From: a virus
Length of the DNA: 35,917 bases
IMG/VR virus record: IMGVR_UViG_3300047172_000172
Coordinates: 1 to 35,917 of that record
Direction: 5' to 3' (one strand)
Below are positions 3,210 to 35,062 of the stretch, piece by piece; positions within the stretch are counted from its first letter, which is position 1, and every line of letters starts with the position of its first letter. The translations under genes were made by a program, and so were the position numbers. The notes under the pieces were generated by a model, which saw only the letters and a program-made list of their open reading frames with translations, was not told the origin of the DNA and ran no database searches.

Positions 3210-6200
3210 CTAGGACGGAGGCGCGGTATACGACGGTGCGATCGTCGCTGCCGGCGTCGGAACCGGAGTGAAAGGCGGACTCGGCACCGGCGAAGGTGTC
3301 GCAGGCGCCGTTCCCGTTCCCCACGTCATCACTTGGATATTGTCCTGGATGTTCGTCAGCGTGATTGAAGGCGTGCTGCCGCCGGACCCTGTGACCGTCG
3401 GCGACGTCCAGTTGAAAGTCGCGAGATCCGCATTGAGTTCGGCGTAACACGAGTCCGAGATACCGCCGCGTCCCTGCGTCACGCCGAGGCACGACGAGTC
3501 CGAACGCTCCGTCGTCCCGAATTGCCCGACTTGGACCCACGTCGTCCCCGCGGGGAGCGTGAACGTCGCGGTCTGCGGGTAGTACGGAAGCGGCGTCGAG
3601 GTCATGGTCAGACCGCTGATCGGGAAGGCCGTGTCGGCGTTCCAGAAGACCAGCCAATCTTGCCCCGTGCTCCATTGCAACGGAATCGTCTTGATGTTCG
3701 CTGTGACGCCGTTGCCCACGCTGGTCGGCGTGGTCACTTTGACCTGATACTGCGTCGGGGTGAAGGTCGTCGACGGGTTCGGGTCCGCGAGCGTCTGCAT
3801 GAGCGAGCGCGTCTCATACCACGGTGGCTTCACGTTGCCATACATATCGATGACCGCGCCTTCGTACCCGAAGTTTTGGAAGTACGTGTCGTTCGCGTTG
3901 TCTTCGTACAGCACGCCGAAGCCCTTGCGGAATGATTCGGCCCACGTGCGATTGATGTAATACGCATAGATCGGCGCCGGCAGAACGCTCGTCGAGGTGC
4001 CTGTCAGCGCCTGATTATCCTGGTACCCAAATTCGCCCGTCTTCGGAGCGGCCCCGGGAACGTAGGATGTTGCGTATTCGTACCACGTCTCCGGCGGTTC
4101 CGCATTCGACGCGGAGAAGAGTTCCGGCGAGAACGTATTACCCGGCGACCAATGGATATTTCCACGATCGACGAGCTGCGCGAACGTCGGGCTGTTAAGT
4201 GCGAGCCCGCTCGCGTGATTGAGCGTGAACACGCCGGTTACGGTATTTGGCGATGAGGACGTGTTGATCGCCGTAACTGAGACAACTTCGCTATTCGCGC
4301 CGTCGACGACTTGAACCGGCTGGCCGACAACGAACACCGATGCGGTCGCGACGTTGACCGCTTGAGCGGTCGTACTTCCGGTGATCGCTTGCGTGATCGT
4401 CGTATTGCCGAGCGTTGCGTAGAACGCGTTAAGTTCGGCAACTGACGTCGAACTCGGGTGTCCAAGACCGACGCCATCGTTGAGGAGTGGCGGCGACGTG
4501 GGGTGAGATGACGGCAGGATGTTCTTGTTGTAATATTGGGACATCGTCGCGAGGTAGCCCATCTGGGCGTACGCGGAGAGTTCCCAGTTCGAGGCGTTGC
4601 CGTCGTCGGGTTCGTTCGATCCCTCGATGAAATTAATGCACGACGGGCCGCCGTTATATTCGACCTGTTGGTCGAACACGGTCTGGCTTACGGGCGCGTT
4701 GTACGTGCCGTTCGCTTGGCCGAGTTCATTTGCGTACGCGTGCGTGATTCCAGCCGCGCAGAGCGCCTGGAATACCGGATCCGTCGCAGATAGCAGGTTT
4801 GAGCCGCCGGTGTATCCGTCGCGGAGGCCGGCGTTCTCTCCCGGAACGAATTCTGCTTCGAAAGCGGCGATCGTTTGATTGAGATTGGCCGAAAGACCGC
4901 CGTTGTAAGCGTTTGAACCGCTCGCGTGGTTCAAGTAGAAACGGCCGGTCACGGTGTTGGAGCCCGTGTTCACCGCCGTGAGGTAGACGGCCTCACGATT
5001 GGCACCGTCGCCCGCGAGGATGACGCTCCCCGCTGAAAGATAACTTGTGTTGTCAAACGCGACAGTCTGCACCGCGCTCGGGTTAGCCGTGACGTTCGCC
5101 TGGAAGACGTACGTCTTGTTGTACGATGAAGACTCGCCCTGAATTCCGCCAGCATCATAGCCGTATGAACTGACGAATGATTTCGCCGTCTTTACGACCG
5201 GCACACTCGCCGCATCCGAGATCGTATTCGTCCGAGACGCATAGAGTTGCTGAATTTGTGGGAGCGTGAACGTCTCGTTGCTATAAACGGCGAAGTCCTG
5301 GAGAATGCCCGTGAAATAATCGTCCGTCGTTCCGTTGATACCATAGAACGGCACGAATCCGATCGAATCGTTGTCGTAGAACGGGAATGGGTTCGCCGTA
5401 TTCTCGTTAGCTTGAGCGACTTGATTTGAATCGACGTAGATCGTAATGAGCGGATTAGCGCCACCGGTCTGCGGCACGTAGGTTACAAACGCTTGGTGAC
5501 AATTTCCGTCAGCGAAATTCGTTCCCGACGATGCGATCGATTGTTTCGTGAAATCAGAATTCTCTAGGTAGAATCCGATATTTCCGCTTCCGTCGAGATA
5601 AATAACGCGATCAACTTCATACGAACCTGAGATTGAACTCGCCGTGTAATTCGTTGCGTATCCGACCAGATTCCACGGTCCCGTGACAGCAGATCGAACA
5701 GGAGCGCCCACGGATCCCGCGAGCGGTTGGCCCGCGGTGCTCGTTTTAAACCAAATTTCTTCGGCGAACGGCTGGGGCGTCGAGCTTGTAGCGTTCCATC
5801 CGATATAGCTCGTCAGGCCGCCTTCGGCAACCATCGCGTTCGCTGCGGTGCCGTTAAACGAAACCGCGCCGACGCCATTGGACGTGCAGCCAGTCTGATT
5901 CGCCGTTGCAGACGTACCGGTTGCACCAAGCCATCCCTTATGAAAGGCATTGGGCGGCATTCCGGTGAGCGGATCAACTGCGAGATTCTTTTCGTCTCCG
6001 GATCCCTGTGCTTCGGAGAGCGGAGCGAAAGCCACGGGTGAATACGACTCACGCAACGCGTTAAATGACATCGAACTCGAGGTCGGGCTTGGCGTGGGCG
6101 TCGGGCTCGCTGTCGGCGTCGGAGTTGGCGTCGGAGACGCGCTTGGCGTGGCCGTCGGCGTCGGCGTCGGCGTCGCCGATCCGGTCGGCGTGGGCGATGG

Positions 6201-7064
6201 CGTCGGAGATGCCGTCGGCGTTGCGGAAGGCGTCGGACTCGGCGTCGGCGTCGCCGATACGGTAGCCGTCGGCGATGGCGTCGGAGATGCCGTCGGCGTT
6301 GCGGAAGGCGTCGGACTCGGTGACGGCGTCGGCGATACGGTAGCCGTCGGCGTCGGTGAAGCCGCAACGGTTGCGCCGGATCCGATGATGAGAACTTCGA
6401 TTACTTCGTGATTGGTACCGTTGACGAAGCCGCTCGCGAGATCGTTCTCCTCAAGCGTAAATCCGCACGTAGTGGCGGTCAGCGAGGAGCAGCCAGAGAC
6501 CGACGAAGAGTATACGTCAACAATCCCCTGATTCTGAATATTGTCGACGGTAACGGGAAAGATCGCCGGCGGAGCCGTGAATCCGGAATAAAAGAACGTC
6601 CAAGAGCCGTTTACGCCTTGGTTTCCCGGCGACTTTACGAAAGCGACCAGGCAGTTCGAGAGATCGCCGCCCGAATTGATGGGAGATGAAAACGTTCCGC
6701 AGCGATACGTCGACGTAAGCGTCGTCGCAACGAGTCGCCCTGCCGAGATTCCCGTAGCCGTCGGGGTCGGTGAAGGCGTCGACGAAGATGATCCGCTCGC
6801 GGTCGGACCCGGTGTCGGAGGCGCGATACCATTCGGGCACGTCTGCGGAATTCCAACATAGACATCGACGGGCAGCGTAGTCGGGGCAGCGTTATATTGC
6901 GTTCCCACCCTGATACCGAACGCATTGACGCGCGTGACGATCCAGCACTGCGCTGGCGGCGGCGTGCCAGCGATTGCGACGGAAGTTTCGCCGAAATGGC
7001 ATCCAGAAAACGCCATGATCGTTGCGACGAGGGCAAAGAGCATGCCAAGTAGCCGCTGCTTCAT
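3210..7064 (-). CDS. Giant lipoprotein with LamG-like and clan GH-A glycosidase-like domains
   Basis: 1284 residues. A lipoprotein signal ends at FSGC (Cys22). Residues about 30-90 form a two-Cys mini-module, 105-230 a beta-sandwich-like region, and 236-329 a continuous Pro-Thr-Ser linker. Residues about 395-610 look like a LamG/concanavalin-A-type jelly roll (pattern [23 protein letters not shown], and a closing [13 protein letters not shown]). Residues about 730-1100 look like a TIM-barrel glycoside hydrolase of clan [13 protein letters not shown] puts an acid/base candidate at Glu818 after the typical Asn-Glu-Pro, and KTGEFGYQ offers Glu1011 as nucleophile. A roughly 40-residue module occurs twice, at 679-716 and 915-953, the second inside the barrel region. 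The tail is Pro-rich. In phages such enzymes degrade capsule or exopolysaccharide, but a lipid anchor is unexpected. The start is supported by CGGAG upstream. Family assignment is by motif only; the substrate is unknown. Confidence 0.85.
6193..6320. repeat. 78-bp-period direct repeat inside a Pro-Thr-Ser linker
   Basis: Bases 6193-6242 recur identically at 6271-6320, a 78-base (26-codon) period within the linker-coding part of the 1284-residue lipoprotein. The whole 6075-6360 stretch is built from GTCGGCGT-type units, which read as [10 protein letters not shown] on the coding strand. Similar tracts code for linkers at about 1809-1945 and 2256-2500. The duplication is in frame and changes linker length without breaking the protein, so length variation by slippage or recombination is likely. 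Confidence 0.85.
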
Positions 7065-19882: not shown

Positions 19883-22186
19883 CTACTGGCCGTAAGCCTT
19901 CCCGATCGTCAACCACGCCGGTGCCTTGGAGCTCACCGGAGCGCCCTGGACGAGCGACGTCTTCTTGCGGAAGTCTCGGAAGTGCTTCCCGAGGTCTTCC
20001 TTGTTCTTGACGCCCGGCAGAACGAGGTCGCCCTGGACGACAACCGACTGCCCGTTGCCAGCCTGGCTCGCCGGCAAAAGGCCGTAGCCCGCACGGTAAG
20101 CCGCGTCGTTGTTCGCCTGTTGCTGGTGAATCCACGACGCGAAGTTCATCGCCATCCCCTGAAAGCCGGTCGATGCCCCAACGTTGCCCGTGATGCTATT
20201 CCACAGCGAATCACGGATGAAGCCGCCAAGCGCCGGAAGGGCGTTTGCGAGGGCCTTCATCGCTGCGGCCCACGCTCCCGTGATCGCCGAGACGAGCGCA
20301 GGCTTACCCACATCGTCAATCCACCGGTTCGCTTTGCCGAGGGCAAAGTTGATGTCGGTCCCGTGCTTCACGAATTGCTGGATCGCGTCAATGATCAGCG
20401 TGATGTTCCCGATGACCGGGATCGCCCGAAGGCCCAGCCGACCGACCGTCTCAGCAAGTAGCGAGAGGCCGCCGCGCGTGAAGAGCACTTCGCGACCGAA
20501 CGTCCGAAATAGACCGCCCAGGTCTTTCATTGCGGACCCGAGCCGCCCGATTGTCGGAAAGAAATCAACGCCGTTTCCGAACAGCGACCCGATGCGGCCT
20601 ATCCCTCCGCCCATGCGCGCGATGCCCTCGCCCGCTCCCCCGAGGTGTCCCCAGCCGCCAATGCCAATGCCGCCCGCCTTCGCTGCGGCGTGCGCGAACA
20701 CACCGATGCCGCCGAGCATCTTCAGCGCGTAGTACGCACCGGCAGCAGAGACAACTGCGAGGCCACCCGCTGCGATATTCTGCGCCGCAGGGTGCTGCGA
20801 GAGGTACATCGCGGCGCCGCCTGTCAGCTTCGCGAGGTTGCCCACGAGAGAGGTGAGCGGCGCGATTAGCGGACTTGCGAGCAACGTGGCGAGAGTCTGG
20901 AAATTCGATGTGAGGAGCTTCGTTTGATTGTTGAGCGATCCCATGAGCTCAACCTGAGCCTTTTGGAGATCCTCGACGCGGCTCATCGTTGCCGTGACGT
21001 TCGCGCGCTGCGCGATACCAGCGTTCGACGAAAACGCTCCGACGATGAGGCCAGCGTTTGTGTTGAACGCTCGTCCGAGCTCCTGATTGTAGGTGCCGAC
21101 CGTACCGTTCTTGCGCGCAGCGTTGTACTGCGTGTTCAGATATGCGAAAAGTGCTTCGGGATTGAACGCACCCGTCCGCTGATCGATGAACCGGCTGCGC
21201 CCGTCAGCGCCGAGAAGCCCGAGGGCACTCTGCGCGGCGAGCATCTTCGCTCCCGAGGGATTCTGCAGATTCCGAAGGGCCATATTGAGGCCCGTTCCGG
21301 ATTTTCCGCCGCCGTAGCCGAGTCGATCGGCCGTGGCCTGCAGCATGAGTATCTCGGACGGCGAGACCCCCGCATTCGCGAAATTTGCGCCGTAATACTT
21401 GATCTGCTTCGCAGCCGTCTTCAGACTGTCGGGCATATCGTTCGAGATTTTGAAGAGCGTATTCGCAAACGGCGCGAGCTGGCCGGCCGTCCGAAGGTTG
21501 AGTTCGTGTGCGAGAGTCGCAAGCATGGCCGTCGACTGGTCGAACGAAACGTGGTTCTTTCCGAGGTACTGCGTATCGGCGAATTTTGCGATCGGCATCG
21601 CGAGCGCGCGCAACTGCGCCGGGTCGTTGATGCCCGAGGTGGCCATTGTGCGAAGAATACCCATCGACGCCGTGACGCTCTGCGCCGTCGACATGGACAT
21701 CTGCATCGCCAGCGGCACGAGATTGTCTGAAACGTACTTGTTTGAGCGGCCAAGGGCGATGGCGGTCTGAATTGACGCGTCTTGAAGGTTCGACGCTCCG
21801 CGAATACCGATCGCTTCGGTTGCAAGCCCGCCGATCGCGAGTCCCTTGCCGAGATTGCCGAGTCCGCCGAAAAGGCCGCCACCGACGCCGCCGACACTTG
21901 AGCGGGTCGCTACCGTGGATGCCCGATTCAGACGGGCCGTCGCAGCCGCAGCGCCGTCGGCCGAGGCCGTGACCTTGGCAAACGTGTCCGCTAGACCGGT
22001 GTAACCGGCGGTCGCGCGTTCCGTGACGCCGACCGACGCCCCTATGGTCCGGTTGAGCGAGCGCATAGCCTTCGCCATCGCCTCAAGACCGGCCGCGCTC
22101 TGTTCCGAGAGCTTCGCGATCGACTCAAGAAACTCGAGGTTGCCGGTAAACAGAAAGCGCGAAGAGACGGTGAAAGAATCTGCCAC
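19883..22186 (-). CDS. Tail tape measure protein
   Basis: 767 residues, the longest gene of the tail-shaft module. It has a helical, Ala/Leu/Gln-rich N-terminal half with phage_MinorTail-type TMP character. A glycine-rich hydrophobic region follows at about 480-560 (GGIGVFAHAAAKAGGIGIGG) and a hydrophobic segment with RAIPVIGNITLIIDAI near 625, as in many tape measures. In such phages this protein sets tail length and travels with DNA; about 0.15 nm per residue would predict a tail of the order of 115 nm. The start is a GTG with AAGAGG eight bases upstream. It follows the frameshifted chaperone and completion genes, as expected. Confidence 0.88.
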   Translation of the reverse strand: MADSFTVSSRFLFTGNLEFLESIAKLSEQSAAGLEAMAKAMRSLNRTIGASVGVTERATAGYTGLADTFAKVTASADGAAAATARLNRASTVATRSSVGGVGGGLFGGLGNLGKGLAIGGLATEAIGIRGASNLQDASIQTAIALGRSNKYVSDNLVPLAMQMSMSTAQSVTASMGILRTMATSGINDPAQLRALAMPIAKFADTQYLGKNHVSFDQSTAMLATLAHELNLRTAGQLAPFANTLFKISNDMPDSLKTAAKQIKYYGANFANAGVSPSEILMLQATADRLGYGGGKSGTGLNMALRNLQNPSGAKMLAAQSALGLLGADGRSRFIDQRTGAFNPEALFAYLNTQYNAARKNGTVGTYNQELGRAFNTNAGLIVGAFSSNAGIAQRANVTATMSRVEDLQKAQVELMGSLNNQTKLLTSNFQTLATLLASPLIAPLTSLVGNLAKLTGGAAMYLSQHPAAQNIAAGGLAVVSAAGAYYALKMLGGIGVFAHAAAKAGGIGIGGWGHLGGAGEGIARMGGGIGRIGSLFGNGVDFFPTIGRLGSAMKDLGGLFRTFGREVLFTRGGLSLLAETVGRLGLRAIPVIGNITLIIDAIQQFVKHGTDINFALGKANRWIDDVGKPALVSAITGAWAAAMKALANALPALGGFIRDSLWNSITGNVGASTGFQGMAMNFASWIHQQQANNDAAYRAGYGLLPASQAGNGQSVVVQGDLVLPGVKNKEDLGKHFRDFRKKTSLVQGAPVSSKAPAWLTIGKAYGQ

Positions 22187-22222: not shown

Positions 22223-22537
22223 ATGGCTCGAAAAGTCGTCTCGCTCAGGCCGAAGCTCGCGCAGAAGGCAACGAAGCAGCGACGCGCCGCCGATCAGACG
22301 AAGCGCGAAGCCGATCGGGCCATGTACCTCGCGGCGATTGACCATCTCGAGCAGACACCAGGCTACCGCGAGCGATCGGACATCCACGACGTGCTGGCGT
22401 CGGTCATCGCGGCATTTCACGTGCGCGCCGCGAGTCTCTCCTCACGGTTCGTGCCTAGATCGCCTCGTCCCGAGAAACCTCGGCAAATGCGAGCACTTCC
22501 AGTGGACGACGGTTCCCCGTCATCGCCTTCATCGTAG
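22223..22537 (+). CDS. Lone plus-strand small basic protein; moron candidate
   Basis: 104 residues if read to its stop. It is the only plausible plus-strand gene in the window. The first about 78 residues look coding: Lys/Arg/Gln-rich helix (KLAQKATKQRRAADQTKREA), then an amphipathic region (AMYLAAIDHLEQ, SDIHDVLASVIAAFHV), with mostly G/C third bases and frequent G first bases. The last 28 residues run antisense to the 22455-22925 gene and look less protein-like. There is no Shine-Dalgarno, but the extended -10 just upstream predicts a leaderless mRNA. A competing minus-strand frame of 76 residues (22190-22420) covers the same bases and ends three bases before the tape measure start, so the strand is not certain. 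Possible roles are a small regulator or nucleic-acid-binding protein; no family is recognised. Confidence 0.42.
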   Translation: MARKVVSLRPKLAQKATKQRRAADQTKREADRAMYLAAIDHLEQTPGYRERSDIHDVLASVIAAFHVRAASLSSRFVPRSPRPEKPRQMRALPVDDGSPSSPSS

Positions 22538-22925
22538 CGCCCGCGATCGCTTCCACTTCTGGCAACGCCGCAGCCGATCCGATCGCGATAGCGGGCCGCG
22601 GTGGGATGCGAGCCGTCCCGAATTCTTGGTATTCGGCCACTGGCTCCTCGGAGCCGACACGAAAGCCAAGAGAGTCGTACTCGATCTTTATCGAATCGCG
22701 GAGCAACTCGCCCGTTCGGACGAGCGGATCGTTCGGTGTGTATCCCAATCGCACGCGTTCAGCTTGTGTGGATTCCGCGAGGTCTTGCAGCTTACTCGCG
22801 TCCCCGTACGTCTCTTGAATATGTCGCTTCACGGCCTGGGCCATGAGCGTCTCACCCAGATGCTCGGTCGTGGCCGATGTCGCCGCAAGTTCAAACATGC
22901 GAGTCGCGAATTGACGAGGTGTCAT
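22455..22925 (-). CDS. HK97-gp10-like tail completion protein
   Basis: 156 residues. The pair LVRTGELLRDSI (residues about 68-79) and EYQEFGTARIPPRPAI (about 98-113) is the signature of the HK97 gp10/phage virion morphogenesis (tail completion) families, whose members act at the head-tail interface or tail end. Its ATG overlaps the TGA of the frameshifted chaperone extension by four bases (ATGA), so it is coupled to that frame, which in turn supports the frameshift. Placement between chaperone and tape measure rather than with the neck genes is unusual. Confidence 0.8.
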   Translation of the reverse strand: MTPRQFATRMFELAATSATTEHLGETLMAQAVKRHIQETYGDASKLQDLAESTQAERVRLGYTPNDPLVRTGELLRDSIKIEYDSLGFRVGSEEPVAEYQEFGTARIPPRPAIAIGSAAALPEVEAIAGATMKAMTGNRRPLEVLAFAEVSRDEAI

Positions 22926-23478
22926 TTCACTCCGATGTCAACAACGAAAAGACGCGGCGGGACCTTCCATCCTAACCGATCGTAGTCGTACGTTCCGAGT
23001 CGTCGCTCGCCGACCGCGATCGTGAGCGCGACTAACTCTCCGTCGGTGAGGAGGAGCGTTTCCTGGTACGAGATGCCGGCGAGGATGGCGTCGGCGACTC
23101 TGGCGAGTCTTCCGTCGCCGTGAACTCGTTTTTTAGGTCTTCCCCGCTAACGTCGAACGCTTCACGATATGCTTTGCCGCAGTCTTCGATTTCCGATCCG
23201 TGCACACGATAGAACATGCCCTTAAGGTCCGATTCATTGTCGAGAGCCGGAACATCGACGCCGTTTACGCTTACGATCGCGGCGAGAACGCGGCGATACG
23301 AGACGTCGATCGGGCTGAAGTCCTTCGCGAAGTTGACCATTCGATCGACCGTCAAGAGCTCCGCGCCGTTGAGCTCGCGGAGAACGAAGACGCGACCACT
23401 GCGCGCCGTCGTTTCGGTAGTTCGTTGCGAGAGAGGCCCGAGCGCTTTATCAAAGTCGGCGAATTTGTCTTTAGGCAA
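22922..23478 (-). CDS. Tail assembly chaperone, -1 frameshift fusion product
   Basis: The long form is made by a -1 slip at 23128-23134 after residue 117. The new frame continues for 68 residues (from RVHGDGRLARVADAIL to VVDIGVK) with no stop until TGA at 22922, about 185 residues in all. The extension looks protein-like and exactly fills the gap before the next gene. This is the arrangement of lambda G/GT and of P2 E+E', where the fusion binds the tape measure and recruits tube subunits during assembly. The position just before the tape measure module agrees. Coordinates span both frames. Confidence 0.78.
23032..23478 (-). CDS. Tail assembly chaperone, short (unshifted) form
   Basis: 148 residues when read without frameshifting. 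The core (residues 1-115) is helical: FVLRELNGAELLTVDRMV, YRRVLAAIVSVNGVDVPAL and DCGKAYREAFDVSGEDL, typical of the G/E-type chaperone that coats the tape measure. After the slippery site the zero-frame tail is a Ser/Pro/Arg-rich run (residues about 120-148) that looks like read-through of a sequence selected in the other frame. It starts 13 bases after the tube gene. Confidence 0.82.
   Translation of the reverse strand: MPKDKFADFDKALGPLSQRTTETTARSGRVFVLRELNGAELLTVDRMVNFAKDFSPIDVSYRRVLAAIVSVNGVDVPALDNESDLKGMFYRVHGSEIEDCGKAYREAFDVSGEDLKNEFTATEDSPESPTPSSPASRTRKRSSSPTES
23128..23134 (-). other. -1 programmed ribosomal frameshift site (A AAA AAC)
   Basis: The coding-strand heptamer A AAA AAC is in the correct phase for a -1 slip (zero-frame codons CTA AAA AAC), with the AAC as codon 117 of the chaperone. 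Slipping re-pairs both tRNAs on AAA AAA and opens a 68-codon frame that ends in ATGA with the next gene. I did not evaluate a downstream pseudoknot. Confidence 0.75.
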
Positions 23479-23491
23479 TGGCTACTGCTTT

Positions 23492-23947
23492 CTAATTGAC
23501 CTTGATTTTCTGCTCGGCCTCGATGCGCACGCGCATCACAACGTCTTGGTCTTTGCGGTACGGGCCGAAGTCTTCCACGTAGAGCAACGCGTTCTGATAT
23601 TGGTATTCGTTGAACGAGCCGTCTTCCTGATTCAGAACAGACGCCGTCACCGTGTATCGGTGGTTGATTCCAGACGTGATGTAGTCCTGAAAGTTCTTCG
23701 CTTCCAGGTCTTCGAGATCGCCCGTCGATCGCGTCACGTTGATCATCACCGCGTAATCGCCGTACGCCAAACGCTTGACGTTCGTCGGGCGATCAATCGG
23801 CTTGACCGTGATGAGATCGTGGTTTGCGGATCCCTGAAATTCGGTGATGAATCCGCCGAACGAGATAGACGCGCCCGAATCGAGATCGACAACCGTTACG
23901 GTGAGGTCCGTACCAGTGTTGAACGTGTTCAGCGTGTTGACGGGCAT
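23492..23947 (-). CDS. Tail tube protein
   Basis: 151 residues directly downstream of the sheath, the standard sheath-tube order. It is a compact beta-rich protein (DLTVTVVDLDSGASISFGGFI at the start, then VMRVRIEAEQKIKV at the end) of the size of P2 FII/Mu gpM-type tubes. It has AGGAG nine bases upstream, and an intrinsic terminator separates it from the sheath gene. The tube should stack in hexamers around the tape measure inside the sheath. Confidence 0.82.
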   Translation of the reverse strand: MPVNTLNTFNTGTDLTVTVVDLDSGASISFGGFITEFQGSANHDLITVKPIDRPTNVKRLAYGDYAVMINVTRSTGDLEDLEAKNFQDYITSGINHRYTVTASVLNQEDGSFNEYQYQNALLYVEDFGPYRKDQDVVMRVRIEAEQKIKVN

Positions 23948-24033: not shown

Positions 24034-25596
24034 TTAGGCGGCCTGCCCGAGCAGTCCGGAGACCGCAACGGTCGAGCCGACCTGCACGAACGCCATCGCG
24101 AAGTACACCGCCGGGAACGTCTCGCCGGTCACGTTCACGATCAGTTGCCGTGCGAGCACGGTCGAACTGAGGTTGTTCGTCTTGTCGCAGATCGCGTTGA
24201 AGTCTTGAAGTTCACCCGCGTTCTCATACTGCGATCCCAATGCGTTGAGACCGTTACGCACCGCGGTGCGCGTTTTGTCCGTATCTGCTGAGGGATCGGA
24301 GACGTTGAGCGGTGGGACGCTTTGCTTCGCGCCGATGTAGTTGTACAGGAACGACTTCACGGCGCTTGCGACTTCGATCTGCATCCGCGAGTCCGCGATG
24401 AACGATCCGTCCGAGGCGAGACCGTGCGCCAGTCGGAAGAGATTGTTCGTGTACGAGAATTTTCCGAGATAGATGATGTTGTTCTCGAAGAGCAGCGACT
24501 GATCGCCCGCATCGAGGCCCTGACCCGCGGTGGCCTCGGTCTGGTTGATCCCCGCGGCGCCCGCTGTGGGCTGATTGATCGGATCGTCCGAGGGGTCCAA
24601 GGACGCCATGATGCCGGCGATCTTGCCCATCGGCGAGACCCAGAGTTGCGTTCCCGAGTACGTGTCGAACACGTAGTCCCAGAAGCCGCACGTGATGAGC
24701 CACGGCGACGACAGGGAGTTTGTGATCTTGTTCGCGACCATCTGCGTCGGCGACGAACCGAGCGGAAACGCGTGCATGATGAACCCGGTCTGCTCGGACT
24801 CCGCGAATGCGATTGCATCCGGGATGACCGAGGGGTCCGTGTTCGCTGCGAGGATGAGGAAGTCGAACCCCGTCCCGCCGAGCGCGTACATGCCCGTGCG
24901 CGTTGCGGAGTCGCCCGGCACGCCGAGCAGCTGCGCCGACGTGACGCCGGACGCGCCGTCCGTGCCGCCCGAGGCGGTGAACGTCGTCCCGGTCACCGGG
25001 ACCGCAGTAGACGTGCCGGCCGTCGCCACGAAGTTCTGCGAAGCCAGGGAGTTCGGCGTCGTGCCGTTGATCGCAGCCAAGAGGTTCGCGATGAAGGTTG
25101 CCGCGACGTACGGACCGCCTGCGGTCGCGTAACCGACGATCCCGCCGAACTGCTCGCTCGAGCGGTTCGAGTAGTTCAGCGTGACGCGGTAGACGGGAGA
25201 AGCGGTGATCGTGCCCGACTGCAGGGTTAGGATCGCGGTCGCCGCGTTCGCGTTCGATCCCGGACGGATCGCGACGAACGAGGCTACGACAACCCCCGCA
25301 CCGTCGAGCAGCTCGATGACGGCAGCGGTCTCCGTGCCGTCCGTGACGCGCACGCCGACGAAGTTGGCACCTTCGGGCATGGCGGAGAGCGCTTCACGAA
25401 CGAGCGAACTGTTCAGAAGCGATCCCGTGCCGAAGACCGCAGCCATCGAATTCGCATCCGAGAAATATTGCGGTGTGTTCGGCGGTCCGTCGGTTGCGGT
25501 GCCGACAATGCCGATGAGATTCGTAAAGCCCGTCTGCACCGCGGCCGGAGACGCGGGAACGAGCGTGACGGTAACGCCGGGAAGGTTGTTTCCCAC
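24034..25596 (-). CDS. Tail sheath protein
   Basis: 520 residues. The N-terminal LPGVTVTLVPASPAAVQTGF is the typical sheath arm opening, followed by GIVGTATDGPPNTPQYFSD, and the C-terminus ends in a beta arm (VGSTVAVSGLLGQAA). A central domain with SALPEG-type segments and a C-terminal domain with GKFSYTNNLFRLAHG match contractile sheath organisation. The sheath contracts to drive the tube through the envelope, which establishes this as a myovirus-type tail. The GTG start follows the stop of the small upstream gene directly, with GAGGAG six bases upstream. Confidence 0.88.
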   Translation of the reverse strand: MGNNLPGVTVTLVPASPAAVQTGFTNLIGIVGTATDGPPNTPQYFSDANSMAAVFGTGSLLNSSLVREALSAMPEGANFVGVRVTDGTETAAVIELLDGAGVVVASFVAIRPGSNANAATAILTLQSGTITASPVYRVTLNYSNRSSEQFGGIVGYATAGGPYVAATFIANLLAAINGTTPNSLASQNFVATAGTSTAVPVTGTTFTASGGTDGASGVTSAQLLGVPGDSATRTGMYALGGTGFDFLILAANTDPSVIPDAIAFAESEQTGFIMHAFPLGSSPTQMVANKITNSLSSPWLITCGFWDYVFDTYSGTQLWVSPMGKIAGIMASLDPSDDPINQPTAGAAGINQTEATAGQGLDAGDQSLLFENNIIYLGKFSYTNNLFRLAHGLASDGSFIADSRMQIEVASAVKSFLYNYIGAKQSVPPLNVSDPSADTDKTRTAVRNGLNALGSQYENAGELQDFNAICDKTNNLSSTVLARQLIVNVTGETFPAVYFAMAFVQVGSTVAVSGLLGQAA

Positions 25597-27243: not shown

Positions 27244-27498
27244 CTAGGCAGCAGTCTTTCGCGGGCGACCTCGCTTCGGCGTTTCGATCGGCAAGATCGA
27301 TTCCGGCTCGGGCTCCGAACACACCGATAAGGCAATGATGGAAAGCAACCAAAGCGCAACCGACGCCATCTGCATGGCGACAACCTTCATCGACGGCTTC
27401 CCGAGCATCGCCACGCTGTCGTCGTTCGCGATCGCATCCGAGCACTGCTCGCGCGTCCAATCAACGGCCCGAACAATCTCGTCAGCGGTTACGCGCAT
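27244..27498 (-). CDS. 84-residue single-pass membrane protein with basic GRPRK tail
   Basis: A soluble N-terminal 38 residues (TADEIVRAVDWTREQCSDAI) are followed by one hydrophobic helix at about 39-60 (ending LWLLSIIALSVC), an acidic Pro/Glu segment and a basic end PKRGRPRKTAA containing the AT-hook-like core GRP. It overlaps the upstream gene by ten bases and has only a weak GGTGG upstream. Among neck genes a membrane protein is unexpected. It could be a virion-associated small protein, or a membrane protein that binds DNA by its tail. Confidence 0.6.
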   Translation of the reverse strand: MRVTADEIVRAVDWTREQCSDAIANDDSVAMLGKPSMKVVAMQMASVALWLLSIIALSVCSEPEPESILPIETPKRGRPRKTAA

Positions 27499-28319
27499 GC
27501 GCCACCGCTCGACGCGCCGCTAAACTTGCGAATATACTCGTCGCCACCGATCGCTTTCGCGAGCTGCATGCAGTACTCACGATAAACACCACGGCGGGCA
27601 CTCACTTCGTCGTTTCGAAACGTCACGACGTCCGCCTTGACATAGGTGAGGCTAAGACTTGCCTGCGTCATCGAGTTGGCGAGGAAATCGCAGATCGCGA
27701 TGAGCCCGTAGAGCGTCTCCGCGTTACCCGTTACTGGGTTCGTGAAGGTCGCCTGGACGGGAGACGGCGATCCGGGATTCTCAACGACAAGATTCGTTCG
27801 ACCCGCCACGCTGCCCGTGAGCACGAACGGCGTAGGCGATGGCCCCGTGACGATCAATTCCGCGAAATACGGCGGAAGGTACTGCGGCGAAAAGAGATCG
27901 GCCGGCATCGCGCCGACGGCGCTGTACCCTGACGCCCCCGCTACGCCGTTAAACGCTCGAGCGGAATTCAGCGCGATCGAGAACGTCGGTGCCGCTTCCG
28001 AAGGGTTGACCGGGTTCGACTGCGGATTGAGGTCCGAATTCGTCACGTCGTAGGTCGCGACGATCGGCGAGCCACTTGCCGGAGTAAGCGTGTACGTGAG
28101 CACGTCGCCGACCTGCGGCGCGCCGTTGATCGCGTACGATCCAAGCGCATTTCCCGTTAGAATCTGCTCTTCCGACGGCTGAAAGTTGCTCATCTTATAC
28201 TCGAGATCCTCAAAAAATCTCGAGAAGCGCCAACCCGCAAGCCGTCCAGACTGCCCGGTTCCAGCAAATCCGATATTAAGATGCCGGCGGACTGCGATGC
28301 GTTGCGCTTGCGTCAGCAT
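27489..28319 (-). CDS. Head-completion region protein of unknown family
   Basis: 276 residues. GGAGGG seven bases upstream supports the ATG at 28319. The protein is beta-rich with Pro/Ser loops in the middle (PQYLPPYFAELIVTG) and a helical C-terminal part (LYGLIAICDFLANSMTQ, YREYCMQLAKAIGG). It follows the capsid and precedes the neck genes, so a head decoration or completion role is likely. I do not recognise the family. Confidence 0.72.
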   Translation of the reverse strand: MLTQAQRIAVRRHLNIGFAGTGQSGRLAGWRFSRFFEDLEYKMSNFQPSEEQILTGNALGSYAINGAPQVGDVLTYTLTPASGSPIVATYDVTNSDLNPQSNPVNPSEAAPTFSIALNSARAFNGVAGASGYSAVGAMPADLFSPQYLPPYFAELIVTGPSPTPFVLTGSVAGRTNLVVENPGSPSPVQATFTNPVTGNAETLYGLIAICDFLANSMTQASLSLTYVKADVVTFRNDEVSARRGVYREYCMQLAKAIGGDEYIRKFSGASSGGACA

Positions 28320-28337
28320 CTCAGTCCCTCCGGTATC

Positions 28338-28463
28338 CTAGATCGTTCGCCAGTGCTGCCCCGCAGCATAGACCGCGCCGCAGCCCGCGCAGCGATCCGT
28401 TTTCTTACCGACGAACGGATGCGGCGCGGACGTCGCGGGAAGCAGTGTTTCGGGTGCTGCCAT
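28338..28463 (-). CDS. 41-residue protein with CxxC knuckle
   Basis: Very short gene whose ATG follows the TAA of the upstream gene without a gap, and whose stop lies 18 bases before the next ATG, so it tiles the operon exactly. The C-terminal half has DRCAGCGAVYAAGQHW: Cys25 and Cys28 in a CxxC knuckle with His37 following, suggesting a metal-binding or redox mini-protein. Too short to assign. Confidence 0.6.
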   Translation of the reverse strand: MAAPETLLPATSAPHPFVGKKTDRCAGCGAVYAAGQHWRTI

Positions 28464-28955
28464 TTACGACCTCAGAACAGACTCCAAGTAGATGAGCGCC
28501 ACGCCCGCGCCGAACTGTACGTCCGCGCGCGCCTTCATATCGAAGTCGTCCAACTCGACGTCCGGCTGATCTTCGAGGCTTTTCTCGGGATCAATAACGA
28601 GCGCATCGAATGGCTTGAAGGAATCCTTGTACTCGCTCGGCACGAAGCCCATGAATACGTGATACGAAGCGCCGTCGATGCGATGCATCTTCGTCTTTTT
28701 GTACTCGACCTTCGGACGCTCTTCGTGATCCTTGAGCACCGCGTCGAGATTCTCGTCTTTTGGCGCCTCTGAGAGCTCGTGCGCGCCACCGGCTAGTCCG
28801 CCTTTCCCAGTGGGATCGGCTGGAGAGTAAGACGGAAACGTCGGGTTCTGCACTCCGCTAATGATTTCGTGGGCGACCTTGATCGCACCACGCACCGCCG
28901 TGTTCGCGAGCGCCTTCGCGTCTGAGATGGCTTGTTCGTTTGGATACGTTGTCAT
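28464..28955 (-). CDS. Hypothetical protein downstream of the capsid gene
   Basis: 163 residues from the ATG at 28955. That ATG is favoured over the one at 28967 because GAGGA lies five bases before it, while the upstream ATG has no ribosome site. The N-terminus is helical (AISDAKALANTAVRGAIKVA), then a Gly/Pro loop, then a charged beta-rich region (HRIDGASYHVFMGFVPSEY). Unknown family; a head-associated role is suggested by position. Its ribosome site lies inside an inverted repeat described separately. Confidence 0.72.
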   Translation of the reverse strand: MTTYPNEQAISDAKALANTAVRGAIKVAHEIISGVQNPTFPSYSPADPTGKGGLAGGAHELSEAPKDENLDAVLKDHEERPKVEYKKTKMHRIDGASYHVFMGFVPSEYKDSFKPFDALVIDPEKSLEDQPDVELDDFDMKARADVQFGAGVALIYLESVLRS

Positions 28956-29020
28956 CGTCGTCCTCATTAAGCTCTAAAGCAAGCAACGTGTTGTTTGACT
29001 TCTACCCGTGAGGACGACGA
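28955..29020 (-). promoter_or_regulatory. Inverted repeat that can sequester a ribosome-binding site
   Basis: Arms at 28955-28966 and 29009-29020 are perfectly complementary over 12 bases, and the match continues with few mismatches towards 29027. In the mRNA the 5' arm (TCGTCGTCCTCA) pairs with the 3' arm that contains the GAGGA of the downstream gene and ends at its start codon. The loop is 42 bases. This could repress translation of the 163-residue protein after the capsid gene. The region 28968-29067 otherwise holds no gene. Confidence 0.5.
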
Positions 29021-29067
29021 CGAAAACAACCTCGCGATCCGATCAAATAGCAAGAACGCGGCTTTCA

Positions 29068-30540
29068 TCAAAAGGCAGCGGCTGCCTGCAACAACACGCC
29101 TCGCTTATACCGAGCAAAGTCCGACGTGTTGATGATGAACGGGTTCGACGCCTTGTCGGTGCCGGGTTGGAAGTCGCCGACGTACTTGTACGTCATCTTC
29201 ACGACTTCGTTTGCCCGATCAAGCGGCGCCTGGGTGATCATGCGGATGCGATCGATCCACCGCGAGTCGGTAATGTCGCCCGCGCGCGCCGCAACGGTCT
29301 GCGCGTTTTTCGCCCCGATGAACGGGTGCTCCGAGATGACGTCCGCACCGAATGCGAACGCGTGACGAAGAGCGAACCCGCCGCCCGGAGCCTGGTAGAC
29401 CGGGACCTGCGAGCACTCGACGAACTCGACGCCCCAGCCTTTCGCGATGATGCCGTTTTCGAACACGGCCGACTTATCGAACGTGCCCTGCGTGGCGATC
29501 TGGAATCCCTGGTCACTGTAGAACGAGCCCAAGAGCGTCGCGTCGATCGCCACGCCGTAGAGACCGTTCGAAAGACGCGGAACCCGACGACGCGAAAGAA
29601 GAGCAACCATTTGAGGGATCTGCACCGACGGCGAAACGATGTTGCTCGCCGCCATCTTGTAGGCGTCCTGCACCATGATGCCTGCCGAGAGCGGACGCAC
29701 GACGTAGGAGCCGTCCTTGTACGTCGGGTTGAACACCGTCGTCGACGGATTGTTCGGATCCATCGCCACGATGCGATCGCCGATCGCGCACGTGATGTTG
29801 GCATCGAGCGTGAGCACGCCGGACACGCCGTACGCGGTGGCGCCGGTCTGCATGTAGCTGATGTTCGAACCATCCGCCGCTGCCGCCTGAACGTTCGCCG
29901 AGCCGATCACGGCGCCCGACGATCCGCTGATCACCAAGATCGCGAGCTTATTGCTCGTCGATACGGGCTGAGGCAAACCGTAGGACGGCGAGTTTGTCGT
30001 CGGATAGGCCGTCGAGAACCCGTTGATGTTGTCGACGTGAAGGGACGTACCCGCGGTGACCGCAGCCAGCGCGAAGGAATCGCCGGAGTCATATGCCGCC
30101 ATCGCGCGCAGCCAGCAGACGTTCTCGAGAGACGTCTCGGCGGCTTCCGCGAGTTCAACCATGTCGTCCTCGTAGAGATCGCCAAGCAGCGTCTCGTTCC
30201 CAAGAACGTTGAGGTTGACGGCACCAGCCCACTCGTTGAGGAACGCGGTCCACTGCTCAAACCCGCGGCTCACCGGAGTCAGGCCGTTGTCGAGGCCCGT
30301 GTTATTCGCCGGATTGAGCGCCGTGGTGCTCGGAGTGATTGCGCCCGTACGGGTGAAGGTTTTCGATTCACCGATGCGCGCGTCGAAGTACTCAAGCGAT
30401 CGCTGCGCCGCAGCTGCGCGCAGAACGCGCTTCGCGCGGAGAGCGCGGCGGAGCAGGCGATCGAGGTAGTTCTGCTGCTCGATGACGTTGATGATCGCAC
30501 CCGGCAGACCATTGCCGGCCGATCCTGAATTGATAGCCAA
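29068..30540 (-). CDS. Major capsid protein
   Basis: 490 residues, immediately downstream of the scaffold gene. The alpha-helical N-terminus (NVIEQQNYLDRLLRRALRAK), a long beta-rich body and a C-terminal domain with RIRMITQAPLDRANEVVKMTYKY agree with an HK97-fold major capsid protein. Order terminase-portal-scaffold-capsid and size support it. The start is TTG, with GGGAGG five bases upstream, a strong site that offsets the weak codon. The C-terminus ends in AAAAF, and the final codons form a small hairpin followed by four T residues. Confidence 0.85.
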   Translation of the reverse strand: MAINSGSAGNGLPGAIINVIEQQNYLDRLLRRALRAKRVLRAAAAQRSLEYFDARIGESKTFTRTGAITPSTTALNPANNTGLDNGLTPVSRGFEQWTAFLNEWAGAVNLNVLGNETLLGDLYEDDMVELAEAAETSLENVCWLRAMAAYDSGDSFALAAVTAGTSLHVDNINGFSTAYPTTNSPSYGLPQPVSTSNKLAILVISGSSGAVIGSANVQAAAADGSNISYMQTGATAYGVSGVLTLDANITCAIGDRIVAMDPNNPSTTVFNPTYKDGSYVVRPLSAGIMVQDAYKMAASNIVSPSVQIPQMVALLSRRRVPRLSNGLYGVAIDATLLGSFYSDQGFQIATQGTFDKSAVFENGIIAKGWGVEFVECSQVPVYQAPGGGFALRHAFAFGADVISEHPFIGAKNAQTVAARAGDITDSRWIDRIRMITQAPLDRANEVVKMTYKYVGDFQPGTDKASNPFIINTSDFARYKRGVLLQAAAAF

Positions 30541-30644
30541 AATGGCCTCCCTGTGGATGCGTGTGAGAAGTGTCGAATACGGCCATCAGCTGTCCAGCCG
30601 AAAACCACACCCGGCACCGCGTCCGCAGGCGCCACAGGCGTTTT

Positions 30645-30663
30645 ACGCGCGACGATCGCGCGT
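30645..30663 (-). other. GC-rich stem-loop between scaffold and capsid genes
   Basis: ACGCGCGA and TCGCGCGT (8 bp, three-base loop) lie in the 150-base leader of the capsid gene (30541-30690), which has no gene of its own. It is not followed by T residues on the coding strand, so it is not an intrinsic terminator. It may protect the capsid mRNA 5' end or mark a processing site. Confidence 0.5.
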
Positions 30664-30690
30664 AGGGAAACTTTTGGGAACGATTGCTTC

Positions 30691-31380
30691 CTAGAGACGA
30701 CCGGCGCGCATCGCTTCGCGCTTCTCGTCGAACTCTTTTTCCGAGAGCGCGTTCCAGTCGATCTTCTTGCCGTTCTTGTCATTCGGCACCGGACGAACGA
30801 AGCGACCGTTCTCGTCGCGCGCACGATCCTCGCCCTCGCGGTAGAGGTGCGGCTTCGCCTCGGCGTGTTGCTCGATCAGCTCTTTGATCGCATCGAGATC
30901 AACCTCGCCGTCGTCGACCTTCACCTTCGAGAGGTCGAGCATGTCAACAAGATCGGTATCGATAATGCCGCGGTCTTTCGCCGCTGCGCGAAGAGCGGCC
31001 ATCGCAAGACGCTGATCGCGCTTTGCGATCTTCTCGGCAAGCTCGGCGCGCGCGTCTTCGGCGGCCTTGTCGCCGCTGTCGATTGCAGCCGCGAGTTTCT
31101 TTTCGAGAGACTCGAGACGCTGATCCATTGTCTTTTTGGCGTTCTCGGCGTCGTCTTTCGCCTTCTGCTCGTCAGATTTCCGCTTGTCTTCGTCGGTTTT
31201 GCGCGCAGCCTCCGCGTCTCTGAGAGCCTTGGCTTCCGCCTCAGCCTTTTCGGCGCGCTCACGGTTGGCCTTTGCCTCGGCGTTGAGCGTTTTTACGACG
31301 TCGAGACCTTTCTCAACGCCGAGCTCTTTGAGGTGAGCATCGAATTTCGCTTGCTCTTCGGCGGTCAGTTCGATAGGCAT
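30691..31380 (-). CDS. Capsid scaffold protein
   Basis: 229 residues, highly charged Ala/Glu/Lys-rich coiled coil (about 35-125: NAEAKANRERAEKAEAEAK and following), then a conserved-looking C-terminal part with ENGRFVRPVPNDKNGKKIDW. This is the typical layout of scaffolds that lie between portal and capsid genes. No protease motif is seen, so a separate maturation protease is not evident. The start has GAGGGG six bases upstream. Confidence 0.85.
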   Translation of the reverse strand: MPIELTAEEQAKFDAHLKELGVEKGLDVVKTLNAEAKANRERAEKAEAEAKALRDAEAARKTDEDKRKSDEQKAKDDAENAKKTMDQRLESLEKKLAAAIDSGDKAAEDARAELAEKIAKRDQRLAMAALRAAAKDRGIIDTDLVDMLDLSKVKVDDGEVDLDAIKELIEQHAEAKPHLYREGEDRARDENGRFVRPVPNDKNGKKIDWNALSEKEFDEKREAMRAGRL

Positions 31381-31435
31381 GAATTACCCCTCACCCGTCC
31401 GGGCGAAGTTTTTGAGGTGCTCCGTGTCCTCGGAG

Positions 31436-33070
31436 CTAGGGCTTCGGCTTACCGCGATCGGCTGGCGGAACGTTGCCGTTTGTTGGCGCGGGAGGTGGGT
31501 TGCGCTCCGTCTCAGTCTGAAGATCACCTTTGATCGTGTCGTAGGCGTCGTGAAAGCCGAGATCGCCGGAGAGGCGAGCGCCAATGACGTCGGGCGCGAT
31601 GAGTTGGACCGGAGCCTGAACCGTACCGCCGGCAGCGAGTTGCAATCCCTCGACGTGGTAGAAAAGCTCCTGGCCTTTGAGTGTTTCGTCGTTCGGCCAG
31701 TCAAGCGTGATACGCGCGTTATCGGGAATCTTGATCGCGTCGATGTGGAGCGACGACAAGTCGAACACGCCTTCACGAATGCCGTGCAACGTCAGGTTTA
31801 GGAGCCCGAGCAGCAACCCGATCCCGTACGGCCCACGAAGGCGACGAACGAGTCGACGAAGGGGCTTGAGGCCCTTGTCGATCGCAGTGCCGGACGCAGC
31901 GCCCTTGAGGTGCTCCGCCCTCGCTTTCATGCCACCGAGCACTTCGAGTGCGTACTCGCGAAGATCGCGAACGTACTCGCGCTCTTCGGAAATGCCGTTC
32001 GCGGAGATCTCGAGCAGCTTCGCGTCGTCGCCGACGATTGTCTGACCAACGCCGCGGACCGGATCGCCGCTATCGGAAATCTGCGCGGAGGATGAAGCCG
32101 AAAACTCGGCCGCGTCGTTGTAGCCGCCAGGACCGATGTTCATGTCGCCGACGAGGCCGCTCTTCTTTATGAAGAGCATCGGGTCGGCAGCATATCTCAA
32201 GCCGCGGCCGGCTTGCGAGAGCGTGTAATCCGCTTCCACGCAAATGTTCCGGATCGGCCACCACAAACACGGCCCTTCCGTGTCACGCTGCTTCCCACCG
32301 GGATGCTTCACGTAGACTGCGGGAGTTAGCGCACCGAATCCGTGCGGTTCCGCCTGGAACTCTTGGAACTCGATGACGTTGCCCTGCTGATCTTTTTCGC
32401 CCAGCTTCGCGAACTTCTCGTCTGAGAGCGGGCGATAGTCAACAATAACGTTCGGGCCGACCACGTACCGATACCAGTACGTTTTCTGCCCCTCGTTCCC
32501 GAGCTCAAGCGTGATGCCCGGGAACTGCTCTTCGGCCTGATCGTCGGTGATAGGATACGTCACGACGAGGGCGAGAAGGCGGTTTGATCGCTCGGCGTAA
32601 ACCGGCTCGCACCATTTCGCCGGCAGGACGTCGTAGAACGGCAGCCCGTCGGCGCCTTTATGTACGACAACGCCGACCGCGCCAACAACGCCTTCTTCGT
32701 ACGCCTGCGCCATCACCGATGCGAAGTTCAGCCCGTACGGACCGATGAGATCAGAGACGGCTTTCGAGGCGTTCTCGTCCTGGTCGCCGTTGACCATGAC
32801 CGCGAGCCTCGGAAACTGCTCGTCGCCAAAAAGTTCCGCGAGCGTGTCTTGCGTGATCTCGTAGGCGAGGTTGAAATCGACTGACGGCCGGCGCTCGCGG
32901 ATCGGGACGTATCCCTGACCCGGTGCCTTCTCCGTTTCGAACGAAAATGTCAGGTGCTCGTACAGATCGCCCGAGAGCATTTTCTCAAGCGCGGTTAGCT
33001 GAACGAATCGCTCACTCGCGCCTTCAGGTAGCGTTCGGGCTAAGCCGTCGACCAACTCGCGGAAGGCCAC
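31436..33070 (-). CDS. Portal protein
   Basis: 544 residues. A long alpha/beta body with the stem-like region and a helical C-terminal part (DLREYALEVLGGMKARAEHLKG, LLLGLLNLTLHGIREG) matches the SPP1/HK97-like portal type. It lies four bases after the large terminase, its normal partner. The C-terminal end (after about 525) is Pro-rich and disordered. It forms the dodecameric ring for DNA entry and the tail connector. The ATG start at 33070 is the only one that fits the gene tiling. Confidence 0.85.
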   Translation of the reverse strand: MAFRELVDGLARTLPEGASERFVQLTALEKMLSGDLYEHLTFSFETEKAPGQGYVPIRERRPSVDFNLAYEITQDTLAELFGDEQFPRLAVMVNGDQDENASKAVSDLIGPYGLNFASVMAQAYEEGVVGAVGVVVHKGADGLPFYDVLPAKWCEPVYAERSNRLLALVVTYPITDDQAEEQFPGITLELGNEGQKTYWYRYVVGPNVIVDYRPLSDEKFAKLGEKDQQGNVIEFQEFQAEPHGFGALTPAVYVKHPGGKQRDTEGPCLWWPIRNICVEADYTLSQAGRGLRYAADPMLFIKKSGLVGDMNIGPGGYNDAAEFSASSSAQISDSGDPVRGVGQTIVGDDAKLLEISANGISEEREYVRDLREYALEVLGGMKARAEHLKGAASGTAIDKGLKPLRRLVRRLRGPYGIGLLLGLLNLTLHGIREGVFDLSSLHIDAIKIPDNARITLDWPNDETLKGQELFYHVEGLQLAAGGTVQAPVQLIAPDVIGARLSGDLGFHDAYDTIKGDLQTETERNPPPAPTNGNVPPADRGKPKP

Positions 33071-33074
33071 ACGA

Positions 33075-34550
33075 CTACCTCACAAGAGACCATTCTATCG
33101 AATCAGGACGACGTGCGAGCTCGGCTTCGACCCAGCAGAGATACCCGATCTCATCCGAGAGATGGGTTCGCTTCTTGCCCTCCTCGGAGGACGTATCGCG
33201 CTTGTCGATGTCGTTCTTGCCTGGCACAAACTGAACAAGATTAAAGTCGTTTACGAGCTCGCGACACGTCTCACTTGACGTGATCAGCCCAACCCGGCCG
33301 TTGAGGTTGAACCATTCGCGCACCGCGGTGATGCGATCAACGACCGGGGGATTGCGGCGCTGGACTTTCCAGTCGAACTTGATGTTTGCCCGGGTTAGTT
33401 CACGTCGAAGGATCGACCACACACTGCGGACCGACTCGTTCGAATCGATCGTTTGCGATCGGCCGCCGCCCGAAGCGTCCCCGTAGATCACGAGGCCTGA
33501 TCGTCGAGCAAAGTCGCCGTGCCGCCGAATAAATTCTGCGACGACGTTCTGGATCGCTGAGTCGGGGAGAAAGATTTCGTCAAGCACATAGAGGACGCGC
33601 CGCTGATACGCCGGATTCGATGGCTCTTCGATGCGCTTCGTGTTCCCCGGAATGCCCGTCGGAACGAATCGCGTGATGAGTGGCTGGGCATGGATCTGGG
33701 AGACCGACGAAGCCATCCAGCTGACATTGAAGTCGAGCGACCACCGAAGCGGCTTACTCGGATCAAGCGCAAACGGCGGCAACGGATCGGGAATCGGCTT
33801 CTGTGGATTCACCGATCGAAGGCCCTCGATCGTGTTCTTGTTCGCGTCGAACCCGCGATAAACGCCCGTGGCGATCGTCCCCCAGTGCCCATCAATCTCT
33901 CGAGCGTGGCGATCTTTCGGAATCGTCTCAAGCTGAAAAGGCAGATACGACGGATCGATCCGTCGGTGAATCACGTTCTCCCAAAGGCTCATCCGGTAAC
34001 ACGGATAGATGCCGGCCCACTGCTTTTCGAAAAGCTCGTACAGCCAATGTCCGACCGGCGGCGGGTTGAACGTGAGCCGGATCTTCGGAAGAAGCCCCGG
34101 GTAATGCGCGATCGCGGCTGGCGACGGACGAAGACGACCAACGAGCGTTGTGAACGTCTCTTGCCCTGACTCCCAGGTCTGAGGCTCTTCGACCGCCACG
34201 AAATCCATCTCAAGCGAACGAATCTGCTCGCGCTGCTCGGCCGACAGGCTTTCGACAAGCGCGCCGGTTTTCAGAAATTTCAGCGTCGGCCGCGGACTCG
34301 TCGTATACCGATAATCGATCTTGTACGCGTCACACAAGCCCTTCAGCGTCTTGAAGAAGCCTTTGTGGAGCTGCGTGAACGATGCACCGATCGCGCCGAA
34401 CGACGCTTTCGGATATTCAGACTGCTGCTTGATCAACCACCACGCCGTGCAAAACGTCTTGCCCGAACCGATGCCGCCGCGCGCCCCGACGACCTTCCGA
34501 TCATCTGCGATGAAGAGCAGCTGCTTCGGAAGCAACTTCACCGTCTTCAC
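33075..34550 (-). CDS. terL: Terminase large subunit
   Basis: 491 residues. ATPase: Walker A GGIGSGKT at 25-32, Walker B-type strand MDFVAVEE at 115-122 and coupling motif LTFNPPPVGHW at 159-169. Nuclease (RNase H-like, terminase_6C-type): Asp273 in SLDFN, Asp324/Glu325 in VLDEIF, Asp358 in YGDASGGG and Asp466 near the C-terminus. Together these identify the DNA-packaging motor and headful/cos nuclease. It overlaps the small subunit by four bases. Length is usual for the family. The packaging type cannot be read from motifs alone. Confidence 0.95.
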   Translation of the reverse strand: MKTVKLLPKQLLFIADDRKVVGARGGIGSGKTFCTAWWLIKQQSEYPKASFGAIGASFTQLHKGFFKTLKGLCDAYKIDYRYTTSPRPTLKFLKTGALVESLSAEQREQIRSLEMDFVAVEEPQTWESGQETFTTLVGRLRPSPAAIAHYPGLLPKIRLTFNPPPVGHWLYELFEKQWAGIYPCYRMSLWENVIHRRIDPSYLPFQLETIPKDRHAREIDGHWGTIATGVYRGFDANKNTIEGLRSVNPQKPIPDPLPPFALDPSKPLRWSLDFNVSWMASSVSQIHAQPLITRFVPTGIPGNTKRIEEPSNPAYQRRVLYVLDEIFLPDSAIQNVVAEFIRRHGDFARRSGLVIYGDASGGGRSQTIDSNESVRSVWSILRRELTRANIKFDWKVQRRNPPVVDRITAVREWFNLNGRVGLITSSETCRELVNDFNLVQFVPGKNDIDKRDTSSEEGKKRTHLSDEIGYLCWVEAELARRPDSIEWSLVR

Positions 34551-35062
34551 GCGAGCTTCTTGGCTTCCTCGAGCGCCTCTTCGTCGATCGTGAAAGTAAA
34601 CGCGTCGTCGACCTGCTCGATTTCGCCATCGCTCGGCTTGCCGGACGTGATACCGCGAACCAAACGATCAGACTCGACGAGTCTCGTAAGAGATTCGACG
34701 GATGTGCGGTTCATCTCGACGATCGCGCGAAGCTGACCGGGCTTTGTCAGGTCGACCGAATCGATCAGCGTGCCGATCTTTTCCTGGATCGCGTCCTGAA
34801 GGTTGAGCGCACGACCGACACGAGCGGCCTGCCCACGAAGATGCGCGGACACTACCGCACGCATTTCTTCGGCTACTACGGTAGCCCCATCGGTAGCATA
34901 GCGGGTGCGTTCGGTAGTCCAGCCCTCTTCAGAGGCCTTCTTTTTTACGGTGGTAGGGTTGATGCCGAATTCGTCAGCGCATCGCTGAGCACTGTACCCG
35001 TGAACCACGTAAGCCGTTCGGACGGCAAGCCAATTGATCGGCTTCTTTGGGTTCCTTGGCAT
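34547..35062 (-). CDS. terS: Terminase small subunit
   Basis: 171 residues. The N-terminal region has a helix-turn-helix (WLAVRTAYVVHGYSAQRCAD, then EFGINPTTVKKKASEEGW, about 11-48), typical of small terminases that recognise the packaging site. A helical oligomerisation region follows (residues about 66-130). The ATG has AAGGA eight bases upstream. It sits immediately upstream of the large subunit, overlapping it by four bases. Confidence 0.88.
   Translation of the reverse strand: MPRNPKKPINWLAVRTAYVVHGYSAQRCADEFGINPTTVKKKASEEGWTTERTRYATDGATVVAEEMRAVVSAHLRGQAARVGRALNLQDAIQEKIGTLIDSVDLTKPGQLRAIVEMNRTSVESLTRLVESDRLVRGITSGKPSDGEIEQVDDAFTFTIDEEALEEAKKLA

Follow-up and report, generated by a model that had tools for sequence, protein, structure and literature searches.

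A predicted -1 frameshift in a probable contractile-tail assembly chaperone gene, and a covarying downstream hairpin among its relatives

A gene in the tail module of this virus very probably encodes, on sequence evidence, a tail assembly chaperone of the G/GT type (lambda) or the E/E' type (P2), the longer product of which is predicted to arise by -1 ribosomal frameshifting. This reading is supported by conservation of the site in distant relatives, by profiles that recognise both frames, by the predicted fold of the T-like domain, by an HK97-like match of the zero-frame domain and by the position of the gene. The material is the 35,917-base virus record IMGVR_UViG_3300047172_000172, and this whole stretch of DNA is called the window throughout.

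The tail module and its slip site

The virion genes of the window lie on the minus strand in the order terminase and capsid, sheath, tube-position gene, chaperone, neck, tape measure and baseplate (Table 1). The chaperone gene is found between the tube-position gene and the tape measure gene, with the phrog_26 neck gene intervening before the latter; the gene at the tube position would encode the tail tube, as judged only from its place after the sheath.

Table 1. Tail genes and frameshift elements of the window
Feature	Position	Strand	Basis or remark
Tail sheath	24037..25596	-	phrog_23, E 1.9e-25
Gene upstream of the chaperone, tail tube position	23495..23947	-	phrog_12993, unknown function
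Putative chaperone, zero frame, G-like, 148 aa from TTG at 23478, stop (23034-23032) included	23032..23478	-	leave-one-out profile, fold match
Slip heptamer A AAA AAC	23128..23134	-	zero-frame phase CTA AAA AAC
-1 frame, T-like domain, KK + 68 residues, stop TGA 22924-22922	22922..23134	-	profile, AlphaFold2
Possible stimulatory hairpin, -19.6 kcal/mol, starting 9 nt past the heptamer	23087..23119	-	suggestive only
Shine-Dalgarno-like GGGGAAG upstream of the slip	23139..23145	-	no excess over amino-acid expectation
Tail completion or Neck1 protein	22455..22925	-	phrog_26; ATGA overlap with the -1 stop
Tail length tape measure protein	19883..22186	-	phrog_28; Pfam PhageMin_Tail

The preliminary description had placed the A AAA AAC heptamer in the right phase, and indeed the zero frame reads it as CTA AAA AAC, which is the phase that a -1 tandem slip requires; the 68-codon -1 frame that it had proposed, ending in ATGA with the next gene, is likewise there, as 68 residues after KK, with a TGA that overlaps the ATG of that gene at 22925. 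Heptamers of the form X XXY YYZ (Y = A or T) occur in phase 12 times in the 10,233 codons of 28 window genes, which makes such a site rare, not unique. Upstream of the slip the -1 frame is open for only four codons, and the single ATG, GTG or TTG within it is a GTG, the 68th of its 70 codons, so that it could not be made from a usual start. The zero-frame tail, described beforehand as being of low complexity, is indeed rich in S, P, T, E and R over its 33 codons, counted from the slip, and is the longest among 80 related sites; since most relatives have no such tail and none has one as long, this composition fits the -1 frame being the one under selection.

One locus, L003 (IMGVR_UViG_3300049214_000177), has most of the head genes of the window, at 79-92% identity; it matches those at 27247-35062 at 91% for the terminase, 89% for the portal candidate and 92% for the capsid, whereas the sheath and adjoining tail genes of the two are only about 23-35% identical, which suggests that the tail module was exchanged near 27 kb. 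A relative of the phrog_26 neck or tail completion gene is also found by tblastn downstream of the sheath in three other loci (L005, L006 and L007).

Conservation among distant relatives

Searches with the chaperone, sheath and terminase of the window returned nothing or one relative, and one of them gave three distant named phages. The family was reached first by a capsid protein search and then by a sheath-alignment search, from which the best 80 of 568 loci were taken, while two further capsid searches added others. One relative, L007, encodes both parts of the chaperone (28% and 47% identical), the two frames differing by a -1 shift and meeting at the same nonamer, CTAAAAAAC; L003, L005 and L006 carry A-rich in-phase heptamers at the corresponding place, the chaperone of L003 having been missed by direct search and located by its position, heptamer and frames.

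Conservation of the heptamer and of the -1 frame, which had been set beforehand as the refuting test, holds across the wider family. Among 94 distinct sheath-bearing loci, 81 were testable in that at least 1,200 nt lay beyond the sheath, and 78 of these 81 have, at this position, a canonical in-phase heptamer at the 3' end of a zero frame, followed by a long -1 frame, as against 4 of 304 stretches of similar size taken elsewhere in these loci and judged by the same criteria. At 80 sites (one per locus was retained where several qualified, namely in L058, L076 and L080) the -1 frame measures 47 to 91 codons and the heptamer is AAAAAAC in 37, GGGAAAC in 27, AAAAAAA in 10, AAAAAAG in four, and CCCAAAA and GGGAAAT in one each. 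Many loci are near copies of one another, and statistics were drawn from a non-redundant set of 48. The three exceptions among the 81, L031, L033 and L043, lack a canonical heptamer. In L031 and L033 a degenerate slip, A AAA AGC, stands near 8330 before an intact -1 frame; L043 has neither tube nor chaperone gene between sheath and tape measure, and the ORF found there (5532-6100) resembles, by eye, an HNH endonuclease.

Komagataeibacter phage phiKX1 (LC644975, L105), known from a cultured strain, has, at 6387-6928, an AAAAAAC directly followed by TGA, a strong hairpin and a -1 frame of 67 codons, and its zero frame matches phrog_20383; the arrangement is like that of the window, whereas the sheaths are only 30.5% identical. 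In its record the two parts are listed as hypothetical proteins, T being a separate gene, and the word "frameshift" is absent from the phiKX1 paper (PMC8566455). By its sequence, this region likely is a frameshifted chaperone too. Alicyclobacillus phage MMB025 (L106) has C CCT TTA in phase at 6285, at the end of a gene annotated as baseplate hub, and after it a 66-codon -1 frame that looks T-domain-like by eye and comes without a strong hairpin.

Both domains and their likely role

Profiles built from relatives with the window left out, when searched against 870 six-frame segments of the window, picked the zero frame at E 1.3e-12 (next best 0.024) and the -1 tail at E 1.9e-9 (next best 2.3); with L007 also removed the values were 8.5e-11 and 2.4e-8, respectively. 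Both domains are thus homologous, at the level of sequence, across the relatives. The -1 domain alone is predicted by AlphaFold2 at a mean pLDDT of 85 as three helices and two strands, and the zero-frame domain at a mean pLDDT of 83. For the latter model the top three PDB entries were the HK97 tail assembly chaperone 2OB9, the V. cholerae PICI-like ORF19 and YqbN. The 2OB9 match (Foldseek probability 0.91-0.93, 11-14% identity) is supportive of, and not proof of, homology, given its weak E of 0.039, and the VIA-align result (Z 7.1 over 100 residues, rmsd 4.9) has a Z that a common arrangement can give. For the T-domain model there was no PDB match, and matches among viral structures were weak only.

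Curated families are silent on both domains of the window: for the zero frame there was no match in Pfam, PHROGs or NCBIfam, P2 gpE included, and for the T domain nothing relevant in PHROGs or Pfam. The zero frames of 18 of 29 aligned family members, the window not among them, match phrog_20383, a family of unknown function, and none of Pfam, NCBIfam and PHROGs gives the zero-frame family a functional label.

Could the frameshift be real and the protein nonetheless have some tail-building job other than that of a tape-measure chaperone? No curated family names the protein, and a neck gene stands between its gene and the tape measure; gene position, the two-product architecture and the best fold match all favour a chaperone, however, and we regard another job as improbable.

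The RNA around the slip site

Downstream of the slip site, a covarying hairpin beginning about 5-8 nt on is clear in the family and is present in many relatives. Across the 48 non-redundant loci, the folding z averages -3.03 for 50-nt stretches that start 5 nt past the heptamer, with 67% below -1.5, as against means between -0.63 and +0.25 for stretches starting at -160 to -20 and at +20 to +160; in 34 of the 48, the stability of the RNA equals or exceeds that of 95% of variants in which the -1 protein is preserved. In 38 loci with fixed spacing, a helix of +8..+15 with +47..+54, its register picked on the same data as were scored, pairs in 76.3% of cells, compared with 57.5% (maximum 62.5%) for synonymous nulls and 65.7% (maximum 71.4%) for shuffled partners. 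Covariation, computed on 34 of these 38 loci, with L021, L023, L026 and L030, which have other hairpins, left out of the alignment, scores 0.289; shuffling gives 0.132, with none of 500 shuffles as high as the observed score, and sliding gives no more than 0.131. Furthermore, the free third base of a conserved valine codon pairs with +9 (standard pairs, G-T counted) in 48 of 59 distinct sequences.

Other, shorter hairpins lie at a similar distance in the window and its nearer kin. Of 680 42-nt stretches taken across the window, 1.2% are as stable as its own hairpin, which is suggestive only, because synonymous variants are often as stable (7.8% of 1000 at 42 nt, 31.6% at 60 nt and 33% over about 62 nt). 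Folding of the downstream RNA, for which the preliminary description had called, has therefore yielded a clear signal at the level of the family and only a suggestive one in the window itself.

Two further elements were considered. The zero-frame stop falls directly after the heptamer at 53 of 80 sites (28 of 48 non-redundant), and the window, with 33 zero-frame codons from the slip, is the extreme exception. An upstream Shine-Dalgarno stimulator looked strong at first, and was set aside when synonymous variants showed that the amino acids account for most of the signal: with energies capped at 0, what is left in the family is weak (an excess over synonymous variants of z about -3 between -6 and -8 nt), and the GGGGAAG stretch of the window is no stronger than its synonymous variants.

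These data also bear on whether a ribosomal slip is needed at all, as the T domain might be made alone by internal initiation, or RNA polymerase might slip on the A run and in this way join the two frames. The -1 frame holds some ATG, GTG or TTG that would leave at least 40 aa in 36 of the 48 non-redundant loci (an ATG in 11), the phiKX1 record has T as a separate gene, and the slip site of the window contains six A. Internal initiation is, however, at odds with the late GTG that is the only start codon in the -1 frame of the window, and polymerase slippage with the 27 of 80 sites that read GGGAAAC, which is no homopolymer and yet fits tandem tRNA slippage; a hairpin a few nucleotides behind the slip, too, fits a ribosomal signal. 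Taken together, these two routes seem marginally less probable even than another tail-building job for a frameshifted protein. As for an accidental overlap of frames or a broken reading frame from which no longer protein is made, the zero-frame tail of the window is admittedly the longest of 80 sites, but the 78 of 81 loci set against 4 of 304 controls, the homology of both halves to relatives, the confident T fold and the ATGA junction leave this explanation with almost no credibility.

Interpretation

The preferred account, namely a zero-frame G-like chaperone accompanied by a G-T product from a minority -1 slip, is one that we hold with high confidence as a whole. Slippage in this phage, its rate and the binding partners of the chaperone we infer: most ribosomes would stay in the zero frame from 23478 to 23032 and produce the G-like chaperone, and a minority would slip back by one base on A AAA AAC, yielding an extended G-T protein whose end lies 110 nt beyond. 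If lambda G/GT is taken as the model, the tape measure protein would be coated with many copies of G and few of G-T, the T domain would recruit the tail tube subunit, and both G and G-T would leave before the tail is completed.

Beyond the window, it is fairly likely that these loci represent a widespread, unlabelled family of contractile-tail chaperones with a composite signal, made up of A AAA AAC or G GGA AAC, usually an immediate stop, and the covarying hairpin. What would this imply? If true, frameshifting in these chaperones would be stimulated by structure, as opposed to the lambda model, in which no stimulator seems to act. For the unlabelled genes of phrog_20383 and their distant kin, the analysis gives a likely function, as it does for a T domain that is overlooked or split off by annotation, as in phiKX1. 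Moreover, the sites form a natural set, with and without strong hairpins and adjacent stops, that may help to reveal how the proportion of short and long chaperone is set in phages.

Comparison with known systems

The lambda G/GT gene is placed between the tail tube and tape measure genes, as is the chaperone gene here. P2 E/E' belongs to a contractile tail, its gene follows those of the sheath and the tube, and it acquires a -1 extension at a slip site that is a T-rich heptamer. The window is like P2 in the contractile tail, the place of the gene after sheath and tube and the -1 extension; it differs in that its slip site is A-rich and in that it is matched by no curated tail-chaperone family. 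The preliminary description had linked this tail to the P2 E+E'/lambda G-GT mechanism with an A-rich slip site, and the link stands as regards the predicted mode of working and does not extend to homology, no curated tail-chaperone family having matched. The dnaX frameshift signal has three parts: a Shine-Dalgarno element, a slip site and a hairpin. Compared with it, the downstream hairpin is seen here at family level and is suggestive in the window, and the upstream Shine-Dalgarno-like excess is weak in the family and nil in the window.

The likeness to lambda G/GT (PMC5009743) lies in a -1 slip late in the first frame, which yields a short product and a longer T-domain fusion. According to the same review, frameshifting in lambda is of low level and in P2 more efficient, shifts of the G/GT type are widely conserved in long-tailed phages except T4, those in certain tailed phages seem to proceed without stimulators, and the archaeal virus HCTV-2 uses A_AAA_AAC as its slip site (PMC5009743). 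In E. coli, A AAA AAC is reported to be less slippery than A AAA AAG (PMC5009743). The lambda slip site is given as G GGA AAG (PMC7618472); here, by contrast, the sites are A AAA AAC or G GGA AAC, joined in many relatives by a hairpin. PRFect predicts such frameshift sites from similar features (PMC10885494), and the GeneTack work reports 6-7% measured for one chaperone cluster (PMC3711429). In titles and abstracts, the subscription literature being mostly outside coverage, no description of a hairpin-stimulated chaperone frameshift in this family was found.

For corynephage phi16, an internal Shine-Dalgarno element, a slippery sequence and a predicted pseudoknot have been proposed in the tail assembly genes (PMC5506516). 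That case concerns a single siphophage with a pseudoknot and another slippery sequence, whereas here a covarying hairpin recurs across many phages. The frameshift mechanism itself is therefore already known; what is added here is the hairpin at the level of a family and a likely function for a family that had been left unannotated.
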